Shown: one piece after another, positions 15,637 through 23,798 of the stretch | Layout of the letters: each line of letters opens with the position of its first letter | Position numbering within the stretch: the stretch's first letter is position 1 | Origin: Acidimicrobiales bacterium | GTDB taxonomy: Bacteria > Actinomycetota > Acidimicrobiia > Acidimicrobiales > Poriferisodalaceae | Direction of reading: 5' to 3' | DNA length: 64,000 nt | Assembly: GCA_009843525.1 (NCBI GenBank) | Contig: VYDH01000031.1 | Location: 1 to 64,000 of the forward strand | Notes under the pieces: model-generated | What the model saw: only the letters and a program-made list of their open reading frames with translations | The model's database searches: none | What the model was told of the DNA's origin: nothing | Program-made: the position numbers and the translations under genes

Positions 15637-18600
15637 ATGGACGACTTCCTGATCGACCGCGATCCGCAGACATGGTCAGCGTTGTCAGGGCACCCGGCCT
15701 CGCTCGTGCCCTCGCACCTGTTCGTCCAGCCGGCGCCCGGCGGATTGGAGATCGCGGTCGTCACCGCAACTCGCAAGCCGACGGTCGGCGACCTGCGGAC
15801 GGCTTGGGCGACCAGGCGGCAGAGGCGCGCCACGCCGGTGCTGCTGATCGCGTTCTACCCGTCACCCGAGGCACCAGGCGGCGAGCGGGTGGCGTTGTGC
15901 GGACCGGTGGGCGAGCAACCGGTGGTGCATCTCGACGTCGAGACTTCCCAGGCCGAGCGCTTGGCCGAGGTCGCGCTGCGCGAGCCGAGCCACCATGCCG
16001 CGACCCGATTGCTGCTGGCCGCGCTGCCCGAGTTGGACTCGCCTATTGCAGGCTTGCGGAACTCGGGCCTGCTCGCGACACAGGAGCTCACCGCCGGTGT
16101 GCCGATGCGTGCCGACTGGGCATCTGCGCGCACCGCCTCGGGACGCTTGCTCGCTCATCGAGGTCGCCGGCTGATCGAAGGACTGGGCTACGGGATCGCC
16201 ACGCTCGCGACCAACGCGTCGGTGCTGACCGTTGCCGGCCGGCGCGAGGCCATCGCCGTGTTCTGCGACGACGGCGAGCCATTCGAGGCGCCTTCTGACC
16301 GGTTCGACGGCATGTCGCCCGTGTCACGGGCGCTGGCGCTCGCTGACCGCGAGAACGTCGACTGGGTGCTGCTCACCCGTGCCTCGGAGATCCGGCTGTA
16401 CTCAGCCCGACCCGGCGTCGGAGTGGGACGCAAGGGACGGGCCGAGACGTTCGTGGAGCTGAACCTGTCGCTGCTGGCATCTGAGCAGGCCGGCTATCTG
16501 AGTCTGCTGTTCGCTGCTGAGGCTGTCTCGGCAGGCGGCTCGCTGCACGACATCCTCAGCGACTCTGAGCGGTTTGCTGCTGATCTAGCCGAGCGACTGC
16601 GCAAGCGCGTCTACTTCGAAACCGTCCCCGCGCTGGCACGCGCGGTCTCCCGACGGTTGGGTGAGGGACAACGCGCCGGAGCGACCGATGCCGAGATCGG
16701 GGAAGGCGAACTCGACAACGCCTATGAGCAAGTGATGGTGATCTTGTTCCGGCTGCTGTTTGTGGCATATGCCGAGGACAAAGACCTGCTCCCCTACCGC
16801 AGCAACGGCCGCTATGCCGACCATTCCCTGACGCGCCTCGCGCAACGCCTTGCCGAAGCCGAACGCAGTGCCGCAGTGTCCTTCGACGACCGCGCCACCG
16901 ACCTGTGGGACGACGTGCGGGCGCTCTGGGATGCCGTCAACGGCGGCAACGACGACTGGGGCGTGCCGGCCTACAACGGCGGGCTGTTCTCCGACGACCC
17001 GGCAGTCAGCCCGACCGGCGCCGCCATTGCGGCGTTGCGGCTCACCAACGCCGAGTTCGGCCCTGCGCTCGCAGCCGCACTGGTGGACGACGGCCCGCAG
17101 GGGCTCGGCCCGGTGGATTTCCGCTCGCTGTCGGTCCGCGAGTTCGGCACGATCTATGAGGGACTGCTGGAGTCGAAGCTGTCGGTCGCTGCCGACGACC
17201 TGACCGTCAAGCAGGTCAGAGGCGCCGACCAGTACGTTCCCGCCGGCCCCGACGACGAGGTCGAGGTGGCCGCCGGCGCGGTCTACTTCGGCCACCGCTC
17301 CGGCGCCCGCAAGGCGACTGGGTCGTACTTCACCAAGCCGTTCGCCGTAGAGCACCTGCTCGACCACGCGCTCGAGCCGGCCCTCGATGACCACCTTGCC
17401 CGCCTCGACGTGCTGCGGGACGCCGACGACGACGCGGGTGTCGCATCAGCGTTCTTCGACTTCCGCTGCGCCGACATCGCCATGGGCTCGGCCCACTTCC
17501 TGGTGGCAGCGGTGGACCGGATCGAGGCGCGCCTGTCTGCGTGGCTGTCGTTGCACCCCGTGCCCGCTGTCACCGCCGAGCTGAGCCGGCTGCGAGACAC
17601 CGCCATGGATTCGCTCGGCGACCTCAGCGACGGTGTCGAGATCGAGACCGGCTCGCTGCTGCGACGGCAGATCGCGCGCCACTGCGTCTACGGCGTCGAC
17701 AAGAACCGCGTCGCCGTCGAGCTGGCGCGCTTGGCGATCTGGGTGCACACCTTCGTGCCCGGCCTGCCGCTGTCGTTCCTCGACCACAACTTCGTCCACG
17801 GCGACAGCCTCACTGGTGTGGCGTCGGCCGATGACGCTGCACTCGCGGTGCGACCGATAGGCGACACGTCGCAGCCGTCACTGTTTGTGCATCAACTCGA
17901 GAACATGCTCGATGCCGTCGCGGGGCCGCTGGAGCGTCTCGCCCGGCTGAACGATGCCGACAAGGCCGAGGTGGCCGCTGCGCGCGAGGCACACGCTGCT
18001 GCACGAGCAGCCGTCCGGACCATCGACGAGGTTTTCGACGTGGCAACGGCAGTGCGGGCTGGGATGATCGAGATTCAACGCGACTTCGACTTCGCCCCCG
18101 ACACGATCGCCGCTCTCGCCCACGAACAGCGCGTGCGCGATGCCATCGAGCATCTGCAACCCGTGCACTACCCCACGACTTGGCCCGAAGTGTTCTCGCG
18201 CGACACACGCAGCGGCTTCGACTGCCTCTTGGGCAACCCGCCATGGGAGAAGGTGGTGGTCGACCGCGAGGTCTGGTACGGCATGCACCTGCCCGGCGTG
18301 CGGTCGCTGCCGGTCGCGCGGCGACGCGAACGCATCGACAACTTGGAGGCCCACCGACCCGATCTGGCGGAGGAGTTCGAACGCGAGCGCGAGCGAGCCG
18401 AATTCCTCAAGCTGATCCTGCGCGCTGCGTTTCCGCGGCTCGGGACGGGTCAGACCGATCTCTACAAGGCATTCGCTTGGGCGAACCTGAACCTGTGCCG
18501 CCCCGGCGGCATGCTCGGCGTCGTGCTGCCTCGCACTGCGGTGTCCGACGCAGGCATGGCGAACTGGCGGCGCGAGATCGTGCACGCCACGGCAGCATTG

Positions 18601-18870
18601 AGCGGGGGGGGGGGCAAACCCGTCGCCTCGCCGTCTCGACGCTCATCAACCACAAGGGCTGGGTGTTCGAGGGAGTGCACAATTCCTACACAGTCGTGCT
18701 GGCCACAGCCGCTCGTTGCTCACCGTCGTCAGCTGCCTCAACAGTCGACAGTGGACATTCGACGACGTCGACGGTCGCTACACCATCGCAATCGTCGCCG
18801 CCCACAAGCACAACCCGCGCAGCGAACCTCGGGGGTGGCTTTGAGGCCGAATCCACTGAACCGCACGTAG
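15637..18870 (+). CDS. Eco57I-class adenine-N6 DNA methyltransferase, N-terminal and catalytic part
   Basis: Part of a large PglX/Eco57I-like methyltransferase gene running to 20085. As the sequence stands, this frame encodes 1077 residues, of which the first 990 look genuine. An N-terminal module is followed by a helical linker (FETVPALARAVSRRLGEG), the SAM motif ADIAMGSAHF at about 612-621 and the catalytic motif GNPPW at 866-870. At 18604 the frame enters an 11-G tract, after which it reads about 85 unrelated Arg/Ser-rich residues to a TAG at 18868-18870. Homology continues in the next frame until an 11-C tract at 19066, then returns to the first frame. With G12 and C10 the gene would encode about 1482 residues. 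Family members modify adenines in defence or restriction systems. Confidence 0.85.
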   Translation: MDDFLIDRDPQTWSALSGHPASLVPSHLFVQPAPGGLEIAVVTATRKPTVGDLRTAWATRRQRRATPVLLIAFYPSPEAPGGERVALCGPVGEQPVVHLDVETSQAERLAEVALREPSHHAATRLLLAALPELDSPIAGLRNSGLLATQELTAGVPMRADWASARTASGRLLAHRGRRLIEGLGYGIATLATNASVLTVAGRREAIAVFCDDGEPFEAPSDRFDGMSPVSRALALADRENVDWVLLTRASEIRLYSARPGVGVGRKGRAETFVELNLSLLASEQAGYLSLLFAAEAVSAGGSLHDILSDSERFAADLAERLRKRVYFETVPALARAVSRRLGEGQRAGATDAEIGEGELDNAYEQVMVILFRLLFVAYAEDKDLLPYRSNGRYADHSLTRLAQRLAEAERSAAVSFDDRATDLWDDVRALWDAVNGGNDDWGVPAYNGGLFSDDPAVSPTGAAIAALRLTNAEFGPALAAALVDDGPQGLGPVDFRSLSVREFGTIYEGLLESKLSVAADDLTVKQVRGADQYVPAGPDDEVEVAAGAVYFGHRSGARKATGSYFTKPFAVEHLLDHALEPALDDHLARLDVLRDADDDAGVASAFFDFRCADIAMGSAHFLVAAVDRIEARLSAWLSLHPVPAVTAELSRLRDTAMDSLGDLSDGVEIETGSLLRRQIARHCVYGVDKNRVAVELARLAIWVHTFVPGLPLSFLDHNFVHGDSLTGVASADDAALAVRPIGDTSQPSLFVHQLENMLDAVAGPLERLARLNDADKAEVAAAREAHAAARAAVRTIDEVFDVATAVRAGMIEIQRDFDFAPDTIAALAHEQRVRDAIEHLQPVHYPTTWPEVFSRDTRSGFDCLLGNPPWEKVVVDREVWYGMHLPGVRSLPVARRRERIDNLEAHRPDLAEEFERERERAEFLKLILRAAFPRLGTGQTDLYKAFAWANLNLCRPGGMLGVVLPRTAVSDAGMANWRREIVHATAALSGGGGKPVASPSRRSSTTRAGCSRECTIPTQSCWPQPLVAHRRQLPQQSTVDIRRRRRSLHHRNRRRPQAQPAQRTSGVALRPNPLNRT
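18604..18614. repeat. 11-G homopolymer tract in methyltransferase gene
   Basis: Eleven consecutive G residues follow the codon for Ser after the conserved WRREIVHATA region. With 9 or 12 G the upstream frame joins the frame that holds the conserved QTRRLAVSTLINHKGWVF stretch. With 10 or 13 G it joins a frame that reaches a second related module and stops at 18842-18844. With the observed 11 it stops at 18868-18870. Tracts of this length in coding sequence are classic slipped-strand contingency sites; a homopolymer read error is the alternative. Confidence 0.9.
18621..18814 (+). repeat. Two diverged copies of one methyltransferase module in different frames
   Basis: Copy A (18621-18710) encodes RRLAVSTLINHKGWVFEG... 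and copy B (18713-18814) encodes LLTVVSCLNSRQWTFDDV..., each matching the single segment with pattern N..x.W.F..V...YT that related methyltransferases carry once. Their Trp codons are at 18660 and 18752, 92 bases apart, so the copies lie in different frames. Nine of 28 aligned residues are identical and many others similar, so the duplication is old or the copies came from different homologues. Confidence 0.6.
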
Positions 18871-19050
18871 CGATCTATCCGGGGCCAGCCCGCTCGGAAG
18901 CTCACTTCCGAGAACTGGTCGATGGCAAACCCGAGTTGATCGGCGTCTCGGAATTCCTCGGCTGGTCCAACACTGCGGCATTCCCGCAGATTCCCACCCG
19001 TGAAGCGTTCCGCGTGTGGCGTCGCATGAAGCTGCACCCGCGGTTCGACG

Positions 19051-20085
19051 GTGCTGATGCAGCGACCCCCCCCCCCGCGCGCGAGATCGCGCACTGGAGA
19101 TTCCGGCCGATCCAAGGAGATCTCAACGCCACGACAGACAGGTGGCGCTTCGCGAACGACGACGGACATGGGGCTTCCGCCCAGTCGCAGAGCTCCACGC
19201 GACACACGACCGGCACCGGTTCATGAACGACGATGGCGCCACCGCCCGATCCGCGAATTCGACGCCACCGGAGATCGGAAGCGATTCGTGAACGACGACG
19301 GCGCCTCCGCCTCGGGCAACGAGATCGCTCAGGCGACGACGGACGGTGGCCTCTGGCCGGTGTACAAGGGTTCGTCGTTCAACCTGTGGGAGCCCGACAC
19401 CGGCATCTACTACGACAGCGCACTCGCCGCGGAAATGATCTCGCACCTCCACAACAAGCGGCTATCGCAACGAAAGAAAGCATCGTCGGCCTTCGCGGAC
19501 CAGCCCACCGAGATCACCGACGATCCCGCAACGCTGCCATGTCGCCACCCACGCATCGCATTTCGCAATGTCACCAATCCAACCAACACACGATCGTTCA
19601 TCACTGCGCTTGTGCCGGGCGAACTCGTCATCGTTCACCATGCGCCCTATCTGGTGCGGGTCGAGGGCACACCTGCAGATGAGGCGTACACGCTCGGAGT
19701 CCTGTCCTCCATGCCGCTGGACTGGCAGGTCCGCCGAACCGTTGAGCTCAATATGACCTTCGAACAGCTGAACTTGCTGTCGATACCCGATCCGGGACTA
19801 GGTCATCCGGTGCGGGACAGGGTGGTGGAGGTCGCTGGGCGGCTGGGCGCGGTCGATGATCGGTTCGCTGAATGGGCGGCCGAGGTCGGACTGCCCGTCG
19901 GCTCAGCCAACGACGCGGCCGCCAAGCAGGACCTGATTCACGAGCTCGATGCCTGCGTCGCCCACCTGTACGGACTCGACGAAGACGACCTCGAAGTCAT
20001 CTACACGACCTTCGACGGGAAGCGGCCCGACCGTTACCGGCACCGTCTCGCTGCTGTCCTCGATCACTTCAGGAGGCTGCCATGA
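19051..20085 (+). CDS. C-terminal part of the Eco57I-class DNA methyltransferase
   Basis: This frame, the same as that of the N-terminal part, is open from 18871 to a TGA at 20083-20085. Genuine homology begins at module copy 3 (19234). It continues with GLWPVYKGSSFNLWEPDTG, CRHPRIAFRNVTNPTNTRS, a SSMPLDWQVRRTVELNMTF segment and the terminal KQDLIHELDACVAHLYGLDE, which together form the usual C-terminal target-recognition region of this family. Possible internal starts at 19051 (GTG) and 19057 (ATG) precede the C tract, so a separately translated half is conceivable. Otherwise it is reached only when both tracts are in register. Confidence is for the region being methyltransferase sequence. 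Confidence 0.8.
   Translation: MLMQRPPPPRARSRTGDSGRSKEISTPRQTGGASRTTTDMGLPPSRRAPRDTRPAPVHERRWRHRPIREFDATGDRKRFVNDDGASASGNEIAQATTDGGLWPVYKGSSFNLWEPDTGIYYDSALAAEMISHLHNKRLSQRKKASSAFADQPTEITDDPATLPCRHPRIAFRNVTNPTNTRSFITALVPGELVIVHHAPYLVRVEGTPADEAYTLGVLSSMPLDWQVRRTVELNMTFEQLNLLSIPDPGLGHPVRDRVVEVAGRLGAVDDRFAEWAAEVGLPVGSANDAAAKQDLIHELDACVAHLYGLDEDDLEVIYTTFDGKRPDRYRHRLAAVLDHFRRLP
19066..19076. repeat. 11-C homopolymer tract in methyltransferase gene
   Basis: Eleven consecutive C residues follow the conserved FRVWRRMKLHPRFD segment. Entering from the frame open between the two tracts, 11 C leads through module copy 1 to a stop at 19224-19226. With 9 or 12 C the reading passes through module copy 2 and stops at 19289-19291. 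With 10 or 13 C it passes through module copy 3 and continues to 20085. This is the second such tract in the same gene, 451 bases from the G tract. Confidence 0.9.
19095..19302 (+). repeat. Three diverged tandem copies of one module, one per reading frame
   Basis: Copy 1 (19095-19166) encodes WRFRPIQGDLNATTDRWRF and NDDG. Copy 2 (19169-19237) encodes WGFRPVAELHATHDRHRF and MNDDG. Copy 3 (19234-19302) encodes WRHRPIREFDATGDRKRF and VNDDG. The Trp codons are 74 and 65 bases apart, so each copy is in a different frame. Related methyltransferases have this WxxRPxxExxAT.D element once. Copies 2 and 3 share 14 of 23 residues, with many synonymous codon differences between them. Confidence 0.75.
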
Positions 20086-20378: not shown

Positions 20379-23300
20379 ATGAACGTTGAGCCGAAGCCGG
20401 AGCTGGCGCTCAATCGGGACGGGCGAACGGTGGCTGATGCGCTGAACGGGTTCATCAGCCATGCGGCGACGGGCTTCGTGGGTGGGGCGTCGGTCGACAT
20501 CGCCACTGCCTACTTCAACGTCGGCGGGTACTCGCTGCTGGCCGACGCGCTGGACCAAGCCACAGGTGTGCGGCTGCTGCTGGGGGCCGAGCCGCTGCCG
20601 CCCGAGAACCGTCGGCGGGCGCTGCGCTCAGAGCCGGCGCACCCGACGCGAGCCGCCCGTTCGCGGATGCGCAGCGCGCTCGACGAACAAGAGCAGCACC
20701 TTCGCTTCGAGCGCGACCACTTCGGATTCACCCACGCAAACCACGACGCCGCACGGCGGTTGGTGGCGTGGCTCGGCTCACCCGGCGTGGAGGTGCGCCG
20801 ACTCGGCGACCGATTTCTGCACGGCAAGGCGTTCCTGGTGGGCGACCGCAGCCATGGCGTCGTGGCCGGCTCGTCCAACTTCACGTACGCGGGCTTGGTC
20901 ACCAATCTGGAGCTGAACCTCGGGAACTATGCGCCCCACGTGGTGAGCGGTGTGAAGGAGTGGTTCGAGGAGCTGTGGGAGCAGGCAGCGCCGTATGACT
21001 TGGCCGCCCTGTTCGCGGCGCGCTTCGAGCCTCACTCGCCGCAGCTCATCTACCTGCGAATGCTCGCCGAGCGCTATGGCAACGAGCTGGCCGCCGAGGC
21101 CGAAGCGGACGGGGCGCCGCAGATCCATCTCACCGCGTTCCAGACCGACGGGCTGTGGCGGGCGCGCCGCATCCTCGACGAACGTCACGGCGTGCTCGTG
21201 GCCGACGAGGTCGGGCTGGGCAAGACGTTCTTGGCGGGCGAGCTGATCCGCGAGGCGGCGCTGGAGCGGCGTCAGAAGGTGCTGGTGATCACGCCGGCGA
21301 TGCTGCGTGACGGCCCGTGGCGCGCATTCCGTGCAGAGCACAACCTGTCGATGGAACTCGTGTCATTCGAGCAGCTCATGGCCGATCAGCGGCTCAACCC
21401 CGAGCACGCTGCGGGTACCACGCTCGAACAGCGCTATGTCAACGATTACGCCATGGTGGTGATCGACGAAGCCCACAACTTGCGCAACCCGGCCACGCAA
21501 CGGGCGCAGGCATTGCGCCGGCTGCTGGCCGGGTCGCCGCCGAAGCAACTCGTGATGCTGACCGCAACACCGGTGAATAACAGCCTGTGGGATCTGTACC
21601 ACCTGCTGGGCTACTTCCTGCGCAATGACGCCGCATTCGCGGACGCGGGCATCGGCTCGCTGCGTGACCACTTCGCGCGCGCAGTTGCGCTCAACCCCGA
21701 CGACCTCACGCCCGAGCACCTGTTCGACGTGCTCGACGCCGTTGCAGTGCGGCGTACCCGATCGTTCGTGAAGCGGTTCTACGCTCACGACACTGTTCGC
21801 ATCGGCGGAACTGAACTGCCGATCATCTTCCCGACCCCGCGGGTACGCAGAGTCAGCTACGACCTCGACGCTGTGCTGCCCGGTTTCTTCGACCGCTTCG
21901 CCGCTGCCCTCGACGCCGACGACAGCAACGGCGCCGACGGCAACGTGGGTGACGATGACGCAGCAGACATGGCCGCAAGCGGAGTCGAGAGCGGCACCAG
22001 TCAATCGGCCGCAGCCGAGGGCACGGCGATGCTGACGTTGGCCCGATACGCACCGTCGCGCTACCGGTGGGACCACGAGATCGACTCCTACGAACTGCAG
22101 CTCATCGGACTGCTGCGCTCGGGCCTGCTCAAGCGCTTCGAGTCGTCGCCGCACGCGTTTGCCGAGACCTGCGAGCGGATGGCCCGCAGCCATGACGCCT
22201 TCGTGTCGCTGCTCGACGGCGGCCGGGTGGGCACCGGCGACGTGCTGGCGGACTGGATCGCGGCCGACAGCGACGATCTCGACGACAAGCAGCGCGATGC
22301 TGTCTTGGACCACTTGGTCGACGTCACCGACGACGCCGCCGAATTCGACGTCGAGCAGCTGCGTCGGGACACCGAGCGCGACAGCGACCTGTTGCGAGCA
22401 CTCGCTGCCGAAGCCCGCAGCGTGACGCGCGACACCGACCCGAACCTCGCCGCCCTCGTCGACGAGCTTGCGGAGATCGCTGCGCAAGCGCAGACCCACG
22501 GCATCGGCCCCGATGACATCCGCGACCGGCGCAAACTACTGGTCTTCAGCTACTACGCCGACACTGTCGACTGGATCTTCGAGCACCTCGAAGCCGTCTC
22601 CCACACTGACGAACGCCTCTCCCCCTACCGGGGGCGCATCGCTTCGGTTACCGGCAATTCAGGCGCCGACGACAAGGAGCATGCGCTGTGGGGTTTCGCG
22701 CCTCGCACCACCGACGCGCCCGAAGGCCACGACCGAGACCGGTACGACATCGTCGTGGCCACCGACGTGCTGGCTGAAGGCGTGAACCTGCAGCAAGCCT
22801 GCAACATCGTCAACTACGACCTGCCATGGAATCCGATGCGGCTGGTGCAACGCCACGGGCGCATCGACCGTATCGGCTCGCGACACCCAGAGGTGTTCCT
22901 GCGGTGCGTCTTTCCCGACAGCAGACTCGACGATCTGCTCGGACTCGAAGAGCGGCTGCACCGCAAGATCGCGCAAGCCGCTGCCAGCGTCGGGGTCGGC
23001 GAGATTCTGCCCGGCCAAGGCGCCGGCCACGAGATCAACTTCACCGAGACACGCGAGGAGATCGAGCGCATCCGGGCTGAGGACGCGTCGATCTTCGAAC
23101 GCGGCGGCACCTCGGGGGGCGCCCTGTCGGGCGAGGAATTCCGCCAAGAGCTGCGCCGAGCACTGGAGGACCCGGCACTCGCCGCCCAGATCTCCTCGCT
23201 GCCGTGGGGCTCGGGGTCGGGCCTGGCCGCCGCAGCGGCCGGAGGGCGCACGGGCCACGTGTTCTGCGCCCGAATCGGTGATCACCCCTCACCGGTGTAC

Positions 23301-23798
23301 CGCTTCGTCGAGAGCGAGGCCGCAGACGCCATCTTCGACGACACGCTGGCCTGCCTTCACCTTGCGCGCCCGCCCGACGGCTTCGACACCCCGCGAGCGC
23401 TGAACGAGGACAGCATCGAGGCCGCCTTCGACGCCTGGAAGATCGCCCGCGCCGACATCGTCCAGAAATGGAACGCGATGGCCGACCCCGCAAACCTCCA
23501 GCCAACCGTGGCACCGCGACTCGCCAGAGCCGCCGAGGCGGTGAGAGAGCACCCGCCGCCACACCTGACCCAGGACGAGATCGACCGCGCCGTCGACACC
23601 ATCACCGCGCCCTATCCCGAACGCACCATCCGAACGCTCGCAGCCGCGCTCCGCAGTTCCGAAGACCCCGCAGAACAAGCCGTCGAGATCCTTCGAGTCA
23701 TCGGCGAACTCGGCCTCGAGCCATACGTCCCGCCCGAGCCGCTGCCCGAGATCACTCCCGACGACGTCTACTGCGTCACCTGGCTCGCGCTCACCTGA
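20379..23798 (+). CDS. Phospholipase D-like/SNF2 helicase fusion protein
   Basis: The 1139-residue product joins two modules. Residues 30-185 form a phospholipase-D-like domain with one HxK motif (FLHGKAFLVG, H148/K150) and GSSNFT (164-169). From about 250 on there is an SNF2-type helicase: DEVGLGKT (276-283), VIDEAHNLRN (DEAH at 363-366), LTATPVNN, and the C-terminal lobe with VATDVLAEGVNL and QRHGRIDRIG (824-833). A poorly conserved acidic insert lies near 510-550. GGAGGG is correctly placed before the ATG. Such fusions move on DNA and may cut it with the PLD domain, which would make this the effector partner of the upstream methyltransferase. DISARM and BREX use related parts, but their other core genes are absent. 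Confidence 0.85.
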   Translation: MNVEPKPELALNRDGRTVADALNGFISHAATGFVGGASVDIATAYFNVGGYSLLADALDQATGVRLLLGAEPLPPENRRRALRSEPAHPTRAARSRMRSALDEQEQHLRFERDHFGFTHANHDAARRLVAWLGSPGVEVRRLGDRFLHGKAFLVGDRSHGVVAGSSNFTYAGLVTNLELNLGNYAPHVVSGVKEWFEELWEQAAPYDLAALFAARFEPHSPQLIYLRMLAERYGNELAAEAEADGAPQIHLTAFQTDGLWRARRILDERHGVLVADEVGLGKTFLAGELIREAALERRQKVLVITPAMLRDGPWRAFRAEHNLSMELVSFEQLMADQRLNPEHAAGTTLEQRYVNDYAMVVIDEAHNLRNPATQRAQALRRLLAGSPPKQLVMLTATPVNNSLWDLYHLLGYFLRNDAAFADAGIGSLRDHFARAVALNPDDLTPEHLFDVLDAVAVRRTRSFVKRFYAHDTVRIGGTELPIIFPTPRVRRVSYDLDAVLPGFFDRFAAALDADDSNGADGNVGDDDAADMAASGVESGTSQSAAAEGTAMLTLARYAPSRYRWDHEIDSYELQLIGLLRSGLLKRFESSPHAFAETCERMARSHDAFVSLLDGGRVGTGDVLADWIAADSDDLDDKQRDAVLDHLVDVTDDAAEFDVEQLRRDTERDSDLLRALAAEARSVTRDTDPNLAALVDELAEIAAQAQTHGIGPDDIRDRRKLLVFSYYADTVDWIFEHLEAVSHTDERLSPYRGRIASVTGNSGADDKEHALWGFAPRTTDAPEGHDRDRYDIVVATDVLAEGVNLQQACNIVNYDLPWNPMRLVQRHGRIDRIGSRHPEVFLRCVFPDSRLDDLLGLEERLHRKIAQAAASVGVGEILPGQGAGHEINFTETREEIERIRAEDASIFERGGTSGGALSGEEFRQELRRALEDPALAAQISSLPWGSGSGLAAAAAGGRTGHVFCARIGDHPSPVYRFVESEAADAIFDDTLACLHLARPPDGFDTPRALNEDSIEAAFDAWKIARADIVQKWNAMADPANLQPTVAPRLARAAEAVREHPPPHLTQDEIDRAVDTITAPYPERTIRTLAAALRSSEDPAEQAVEILRVIGELGLEPYVPPEPLPEITPDDVYCVTWLALT

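Follow-up and report, generated by a model that had tools for sequence, protein, structure and literature searches.

More than two expression levels are obtained from a repeat in the Haemophilus lic genes, by multi-start graded phase variation, and in Helicobacter futC, by frameshifting; to our knowledge, neither has parallel module copies. According to the accessible portion of its report, Cj0031 of Campylobacter jejuni resembles the gene described here in being a single-chain type IIG enzyme with a homopolymer in the gene and conserved domains on both sides, and it restricts phage in the ON state (PMC4889913); it differs in having one G tract that leaves the gene ON or split/OFF, and that portion describes neither module copies in other frames nor frame-return signals. 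In NgoAV of Neisseria gonorrhoeae, a repeat-length change likewise acts in a restriction-modification gene, and the specificity subunit that results is truncated, remains active and has a different motif (PMC6789123, in excerpt), but the subunit is a type I HsdS and the alternative arises by truncation, not from parallel copies in other frames. For C-terminal phase variation in Helicobacter canadensis and gonococcus, excerpts of the reports describe a late repeat from which the three frames lead to different C-termini or fused coding sequences (PMC2823697, PMC5320596), whereas the tails described there are short or unrelated and are not homologous, separately selected module copies. The Pgl system of Streptomyces coelicolor, as summarized in part of PMC4365076, shares an actinomycete phage-defence methylase with a phase-variable G tract (in pglX), but it switches ON/OFF and comprises other system genes. 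Cj0031, NgoAV, C-terminal phase variation, the pglX tract and the prfB frameshift treated below thus have a single element each in common with the present gene, and none of the excerpts combines parallel-frame copies of a homologous module with signals for frame return. Homologous module copies in parallel frames combined with frame-return signals were searched for in open-licence PubMed Central literature, where titles and the beginnings of abstracts held no equivalent; novelty relative to published systems is provisional.

The source genome comprises 3.34 Mb in 43 contigs, and the window (the whole analysed stretch of 64,000 nucleotides, positions 1 to 64,000 of contig VYDH01000031.1) contains a methylase gene at 15637–20085. 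Its N-terminal part was matched by the PADLOC profile PDLC03620 (E value in Table 1) and its C-terminal part by the same profile at E = 4.3e-45; the matched pieces occupy profile positions 41–985, 1059–1128 and 1101–1370 and cover the catalytic and recognition parts, while a plain homologue (L090) matches as a single chain over positions 55–1370. A gamma-class adenine methylase fold with a recognition domain was recognized, as required for a type IIG-like enzyme; the gene product is a type IIG-like methylase and a putative defence-type enzyme. Searched by sequence, solved structures yielded only weak matches (CamA, E = 2.1e-6), and the structural look with Foldseek covered the top chains only, so that a family missing there carries no weight. 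In the model of a homologue, the module treated below lies at the junction between catalytic and recognition domains, its residue position being estimated from the alignment.

The downstream partner gene, present in most of the 74 sequences compared below, was scored by the DrmD models (DISARM) below the curated cut-off (185 of 610 bits). Together, the type IIG-like methylase and the HKD-SNF2 helicase would constitute a two-gene defence-like system. The genes of the C-terminal domain and the helicase stand further apart in many loci, among them L055, L065 and L084, where additional DNA of up to about 4.4 kb lies between them. Homopolymers of at least nine nucleotides occur in the window only as G11 at 18604 and C11 at 19066, both inside the methylase gene. 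Poly-C clusters elsewhere in the assembly (C5:41365-41409, C22:119003-119231 and C26:8188-8254; L009–L011) were considered as further cassettes and discarded: judged from ORF lists and sequence, they look like intergenic assembly junk, and one adjoins a run of N.

Table 1. Features of the methylase locus in the window (frames are numbered as position mod 3)
Feature	Position	Strand	Basis or observation
N-terminal and catalytic part, type IIG-like adenine methylase, frame 1	15637..18603	+	PADLOC PDLC03620 REase_MTase_IIG, E 1.5e-188; Pfam Eco57I, E 1.3e-11
First repeat tract SSR1, G11	18604..18614	+	In relatives G9-16, C13, (GA)n, (TC)n, 5-nt or 10-nt arrays at the same place
A1, first copy of the segment at the end of the catalytic domain, frame 0 (frame of the downstream part)	18618..18710	+	dN/dS 0.24, 24 loci
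A2, copy 2 of that segment, frame 2, ends CTT TGA	18704..18844	+	dN/dS 0.35, 24 loci
Putative prfB-like +1 frameshift signal GGGGG TGG CTT TGA	18831..18844	+	Signal kept in 23/24 loci
mid, segment common to the routes between the cassettes, frame 0	18843..19061	+	dN/dS 0.13, 24 loci
Second repeat tract SSR2, C11	19066..19076	+	In relatives C/G runs, CT/GA, 4-, 5-, 7-, 8- or 10-nt arrays at the same place
Module copy 1, type QGDLN, frame 0	19095..19166	+	Own-frame dN/dS 0.14, 23 loci
Module copy 2, type AELH, frame 2	19169..19237	+	Own-frame dN/dS 0.33, 23 loci
ATGA, where the TGA that ends the copy 1 frame overlaps a start codon of the copy 2 frame	19223..19226	+	
Module copy 3, type REFD, frame 1; in the window it is joined to the C-terminal domain	19234..19302	+	Own-frame dN/dS 0.24, 23 loci
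GTGA, where the TGA that ends the copy 2 frame overlaps a start codon of the copy 3/C-terminal frame	19288..19291	+	
C-terminal (target-recognition) domain; own reading frame in many relatives	19303..20085	+	Piece 19234-20082 matches PDLC03620 1101-1370; relatives have C-terminal ORFs that are separate or in tandem
Partner gene, PLD (HKD) nuclease domain and SNF2 helicase	20379..23798	+	Pfam, PADLOC; NCBIfam below cut-off

After the C11 tract, a module of the pattern WxxRPxxE(F)DATxDRxRFxNDDG is encoded three times (copy 1, WRFRPIQGDLNATTDRWRFANDDG; copy 2, WGFRPVAELHATHDRHRFMNDDG; copy 3, WRHRPIREFDATGDRKRFVNDDG). As the original prediction had it, the copies stand in different frames (Trp codons at 19095, 19169 and 19234), and translation of the window confirmed that each frame is open from the tract up to its copy. 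The G11 tract with a cassette of its own had gone unnoticed: a segment LxNxxxWxFxxVxxxYT follows it twice, as A1 and A2. Behind each of the two repeats, the copies stand in successive -1 frames.

For comparison, genome contigs were scanned with an alignment of the C-terminal domain, which gave 73 loci, mostly from Acidimicrobiia metagenome assemblies; their frame anatomy was scored, and with the window 74 sequences were available. Spurious module matches, one each in L056, L063 and L108, were removed from the counts of copies, types and current frames. Two module copies were found in 13 sequences, at least three in 25 and one in 28, while the 8 without a scorable copy are short contigs or diverged. 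The expectation that family members hold this element once is therefore right for the homologues without repeats, i.e. the 28 one-copy loci, and wrong for the repeat-bearing relatives, since 38 of the 74 sequences have at least two frame-shifted copies. In the PADLOC profile, the copy 1 and copy 3 pieces both map near position 1100, so the element is present there once.

Copies and repeats occur together. An SSR2 array lies directly upstream of the copies in 34/34 scorable multi-copy loci (L108 set aside, L056 scored from frame anatomy) and in none of the 25 single-copy loci with a scorable gap, one of which has C7; SSR1 arrays were found in 18/20 scorable loci with two A segments vs 0/37 with a single one (one has a 7-mer twice). 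The arrays are G, C, CT or GA runs, 4-mers (GTCC, CAGC), 5-mers (GAGCC, CCCAG) and 7-, 8- and 10-mers, i.e. units of 1, 2, 4, 5, 7, 8 or 10 nt, and are non-triplet repeats within coding sequence as in SSR-mediated phase variation. Units of 3 and 6 nt were looked for in the SSR gaps and did not occur among the arrays listed, these being the two longest per gap; the search covered units other than 9 nt. In a tree of 52 rows, a branch with support 100/99 sets apart 30 rows, namely all 29 cassette rows and the plain row L082, and the arrangement is conserved across relatives of several families. Its presence in L079, L083, L087 and L113, on records of 2.3–3.3 Mb of which two bear the title chromosome, argues against collapse or chimerism.

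In L057, five full and one partial module copies lie 1214 to 854 bases before the C-terminal match, spaced by 62–77 nt (the later ones by 65 nt) and cycling through the three frames, the extra full copies being of the REFD type. A third repeat, SSR3 (G10-12; in L073 also G21), was observed in the C-terminal domain gene of L051, L052, L057, L063, L064, L065 and L073, right before a ELDACVAYLYGLDEDDI-like segment that is present there in a single copy; the same seven loci have a second tandem C-terminal ORF. In the single-copy loci L104 and L116, the reading frame is interrupted after the catalytic part, before the following segment, although the usual repeat array is absent; the L104 helicase is also in broken pieces, perhaps through decay or sequence error.

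Selection was estimated by the Nei–Gojobori method for each element in its own frame vs the two shifted frames. The comparison omitted pairs of more than 97% identity; the three-copy set excludes L075 and L057 and the two-copy set lacks L113, while L068, in which copies 2 and 3 are swapped, was kept and raises dN. Besides the values in Table 1, the two-copy loci gave own-frame dN/dS of 0.29 and 0.36 (12 loci), so that the copies range from 0.14 to 0.36 and are not near 1, and the same alignments read in shifted frames gave 0.83–1.87 for the copies and 1.90–2.55 for mid. Change in the copies is mainly at synonymous sites of their own frame (pS 0.45–0.62 vs pN 0.15–0.32); because of high synonymous divergence (pS up to 0.69), the ratios are rough, yet the contrast between frames is still large. 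From these alignments, purifying selection is seen to act on each copy in its own frame, and the claim that each copy keeps its protein pattern held, conservation being present in the own frame and absent in shifted ones. Furthermore, the frame is open back to the tract for 90/90 module copies and 36/36 A copies (loci with a scorable tract, at most three copies per locus), with an off-frame stop density of 2.3% per codon in the same genes.

Repeat length varies between otherwise identical sequences: L051 and L052 align over 1916 bases with 0 mismatches, yet all three tracts differ in length, SSR1 by 2 G, SSR2 by three CT units and SSR3 by 1 G. Gaps of 30 and 184 nt elsewhere in the alignment reflect extracts that begin and end differently; the two are separate assemblies and not one strain followed over time. 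Current frames are spread over the alternatives, with the qualification that most loci are metagenome-assembled and their homopolymer lengths may be wrong: after SSR1 (20 loci), 8 are in the A1 frame, 5 in the A2 frame and 7 in the third, and after SSR2, loci with at least three copies (n = 22) are in the frames of copies 1/2/3 in 8/7/7 cases. Among two-copy loci, the current frame is one without module in 9/12 scorable cases, which suggests that an OFF state is often present. In the window, SSR1 leads into the third, OFF-like frame and SSR2 into the frame of copy 1. With SSR1 lost, L060 is fixed in the A1 frame; a stop interrupts its A2, where the signal is weakened (AAG GGG TGG CCT TGA), as expected if an unused copy decays. 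L046, which has lost SSR1 as well, sits in the A2 frame and would depend on the A2 route. In L075, a TAG disrupts the middle (H) copy even though this copy is the one in the current frame.

Behind SSR1, the A2 frame is one step behind A1 and mid in 24/24 two-A loci (A1 and mid are +1 relative to A2), and A1 reads into mid without a stop in all 24. At the end of A2, the motif GGGGG-NNN-(CTT or CCT)-TGA was found in 23/24 loci (17 CTT, 6 CCT; the exception is L060), so that the layout known from the prfB +1 frameshift, as given in part of PMC12421855, with a G-rich, Shine–Dalgarno-like run followed after 3 nt by a slippery codon and TGA, is present in 23/24. The GGGGGNNNCYTTGA pattern occurs once in the whole genome, at this very place. 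Two features depart from prfB: the six loci with CCT in place of CTT, and the base following the TGA, where prfB prefers C and most loci have G (A in L064/L067, C only in L065/L071). The prfB gene of the source genome is itself open, with no internal stop. L071, binned as Gammaproteobacteria, comes nearest to the prfB consensus, with AGG GGG CAT CTT TGA C where A2 ends. The GGGGGNNNCTTTGA string was counted in 90/296 genomes of the class; as its reversed control is also widespread (control not summed), only the conserved position counts, and the string was dropped as a pointer to further genes of this kind.

A +1 shift at the A2 end is predicted to bring ribosomes into the downstream frame. 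It is preferred to re-initiation at the A2 stop, which was rejected since the overlapping TTG is in the wrong frame. Compared with prfB, the putative signal here is located in a methylase gene, is tied to a repeat switch and belongs to a phylum said to lack the prfB frameshift: according to the available text of PMC12421855, none of 2,658 Actinomycetota genomes examined there has it and its efficiency in Mycobacterium smegmatis is only ~6%, and the A2 route may consequently be weak. In the third frame after SSR1, stops vary among the 24 two-A loci (16/24 at TAG within the HVAIYPG codons) and no conserved return signal was visible in these loci, for which reasons this frame is treated as OFF. 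In the window, the TAG of the module-less frame at 18868–18870 within the HVAIYPG codons keeps a GTA valine codon in a GC-rich gene.

Behind SSR2, copies 1 and 2 are followed by stops (TGA at 19224–19226 and 19289–19291), and the copy 3 frame continues through the C-terminal domain to 20085, as had been predicted. That copies 1 and 2 are dead ends is probably not correct, because both TGA overlap a start codon in the frame of the next copy, a feature that had also gone unnoticed. Among non-fused module-copy frames, 77/81 end in ATGA, GTGA or TTGA, vs 384/846 (45%) of the off-frame stops of the same genes, so that the stop overlaps a start codon of the downstream frame as in translational coupling; wherever a next copy follows, the NTG is in its frame (64/64). 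The remaining 4 of 81 are L046–L048, with ATG 5 nt before the stop, and copy 2 of L075, the TAG exception. This count used a stricter match cut-off and comprised 37 loci, not 38 (L113 drops out), and copy 1 of L060, without a nearby stop, was uncounted.

The overlapping start codon belongs to the module itself (RF[M/V/L]N). NTG-A at the homologous codon was found in 0/24 first copies, which follow no earlier copy, in 39/49 later copies and in 1/15 single-copy homologues (L075 and L108 left out, 14 rows unparsed), and the overlap is also kept in diverged loci at another place in the module. Taken together, these overlaps make re-initiation towards the C-terminal domain likely. In L073, copy 3 has Trp at the start-codon position (RFWNDDG), so the copy 2 frame reads through there and stops later, within ATGAGTGA at the start of the C-terminal ORF. 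The last copy is also unfused to the C-terminal domain in 17 loci and several relatives have a second, tandem C-terminal ORF, which makes it plausible that the C-terminal domain is made as a separate chain.

Module types can be told by one residue: QGDLN (N), AELH (H) and RE[FL]D (D), with QELN and WEFD as looser variants. Single-copy homologues hold any one type (12 H, 8 D, 7 N and one unclassed), two-copy loci hold two different types in 13/13 cases (N-D 7, N-H 2, H-D 2, D-H 2), and all three types are present in 25/25 loci with at least three copies, in the order N-H-D in 23, N-D-H in L068 and with extra D copies and one unclassed copy in L057. That different types are kept per locus favours a functional difference between the module versions; we think that the versions do differ in function, this being the least certain step of the explanation given below, and the presence of different types per locus could also reflect one old triplication followed by losses. 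Module choice proper is for this reason taken to be about as likely as not.

The DNA architecture and the selection on it are likely, in our judgement, to belong to a multi-state phase-variable type IIG-like methylase, in which repeat length would pick the module version and frameshifting or re-initiation would restore the shared frame; these recoding events at the cassette ends are what we infer from the conserved signals. The protein segment after each repeat is present in two or three diverged copies; the length of the repeat would set the frame in which ribosomes arrive there and hence, to go by the open frames and own-frame selection, the copy translated. After SSR1, the A1 frame would lead straight on, A2 would return via a +1 shift at GGGGG-NNN-CTT TGA, and the third frame would be OFF; after SSR2, the NTGA overlaps would pass translation to the frame of the next copy and finally to the target-recognition domain. 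Changes of the presumably hypermutable tracts would then give several states, of which OFF would be one: the isoforms would carry different module versions, have methylase and recognition domain either joined or split, and come with different amounts of the recognition domain. The choice of a module by frame, as first proposed, is well supported by own-frame dN/dS, the conserved arrangement and the different types per locus; the shortened end products that had been proposed for copies 1 and 2 are what probably does not stand. That the copies are frame-parallel alleles, i.e. that the repeat is a three-position selector among module versions from which recoding returns the ribosome, giving isoforms with possibly different targets instead of ON/OFF, is a narrower statement that we make tentatively and hold slightly short of even.

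Equivalent copies acting as frame insurance, which together with the recoding signals would give graded enzyme levels despite an unstable repeat, are a rather unlikely alternative: the pieces of copies 1 and 3 share a profile position, the routes meet at the same recognition domain, and dose would be expected to fall stepwise with successive stop-start hops, but insurance alone needs none of the difference in type found in every two-copy locus and every larger one. If, instead, shortened proteins ending in copies 1 and 2 were functional and the recognition domain came from the copy 3 frame only, the locus would be a case of C-terminal phase variation without re-initiation, of the kind described in excerpts for Helicobacter canadensis and gonococcus (PMC2823697, PMC5320596). 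The stops after copies 1 and 2 agree with this, yet we regard it as improbable, as such stops almost always take the NTGA form that overlaps the frame of the next copy, even in diverged loci where the place of the overlap has shifted, and the last copy is unfused too in the 17 loci mentioned.

It is very unlikely that the extra copies are passive leftovers of tandem duplication in a gene with ordinary ON/OFF phase variation; a unit of about 65 nt would cycle through the frames by itself on duplication, and L057 has accumulated five to six copies, but own-frame purifying selection, the open frames throughout and the conserved signals are set against it. Little probability is likewise given to DNA-level roles of the copies, as recombination substrates or RNA structure, with incidental protein conservation: the copies are tandem DNA repeats whose number and order vary (L057, L067, L068), whereas their variation is mainly at synonymous sites of the own frame. 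An assembly artefact or a dead gene is hardly credible. The poly-C/G junk and the run of N elsewhere in the assembly and the out-of-frame state of the window at SSR1 would fit such an origin, but the same design recurs in independent assemblies with non-homopolymer arrays and on the four long records, and the flanking coding sequence is under selection.

Repeat-driven phase variation is already known; the coding principle of the multi-state methylase may itself be new in kind. If the proposed explanation is true, slipped-strand repeats can choose between functional protein variants and do not only switch a gene off, and bacteria have evolved means to stay productive in several translation frames. 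For Actinomycetota, said to lack the prfB frameshift, the locus would also be a natural setting in which to measure recoding. Seeming frameshifts and pseudogenes in phase-variable genes should be read with the warning that they may be multi-frame genes. For phage-defence methylases, such cassettes may be a new way to diversify within a clone.
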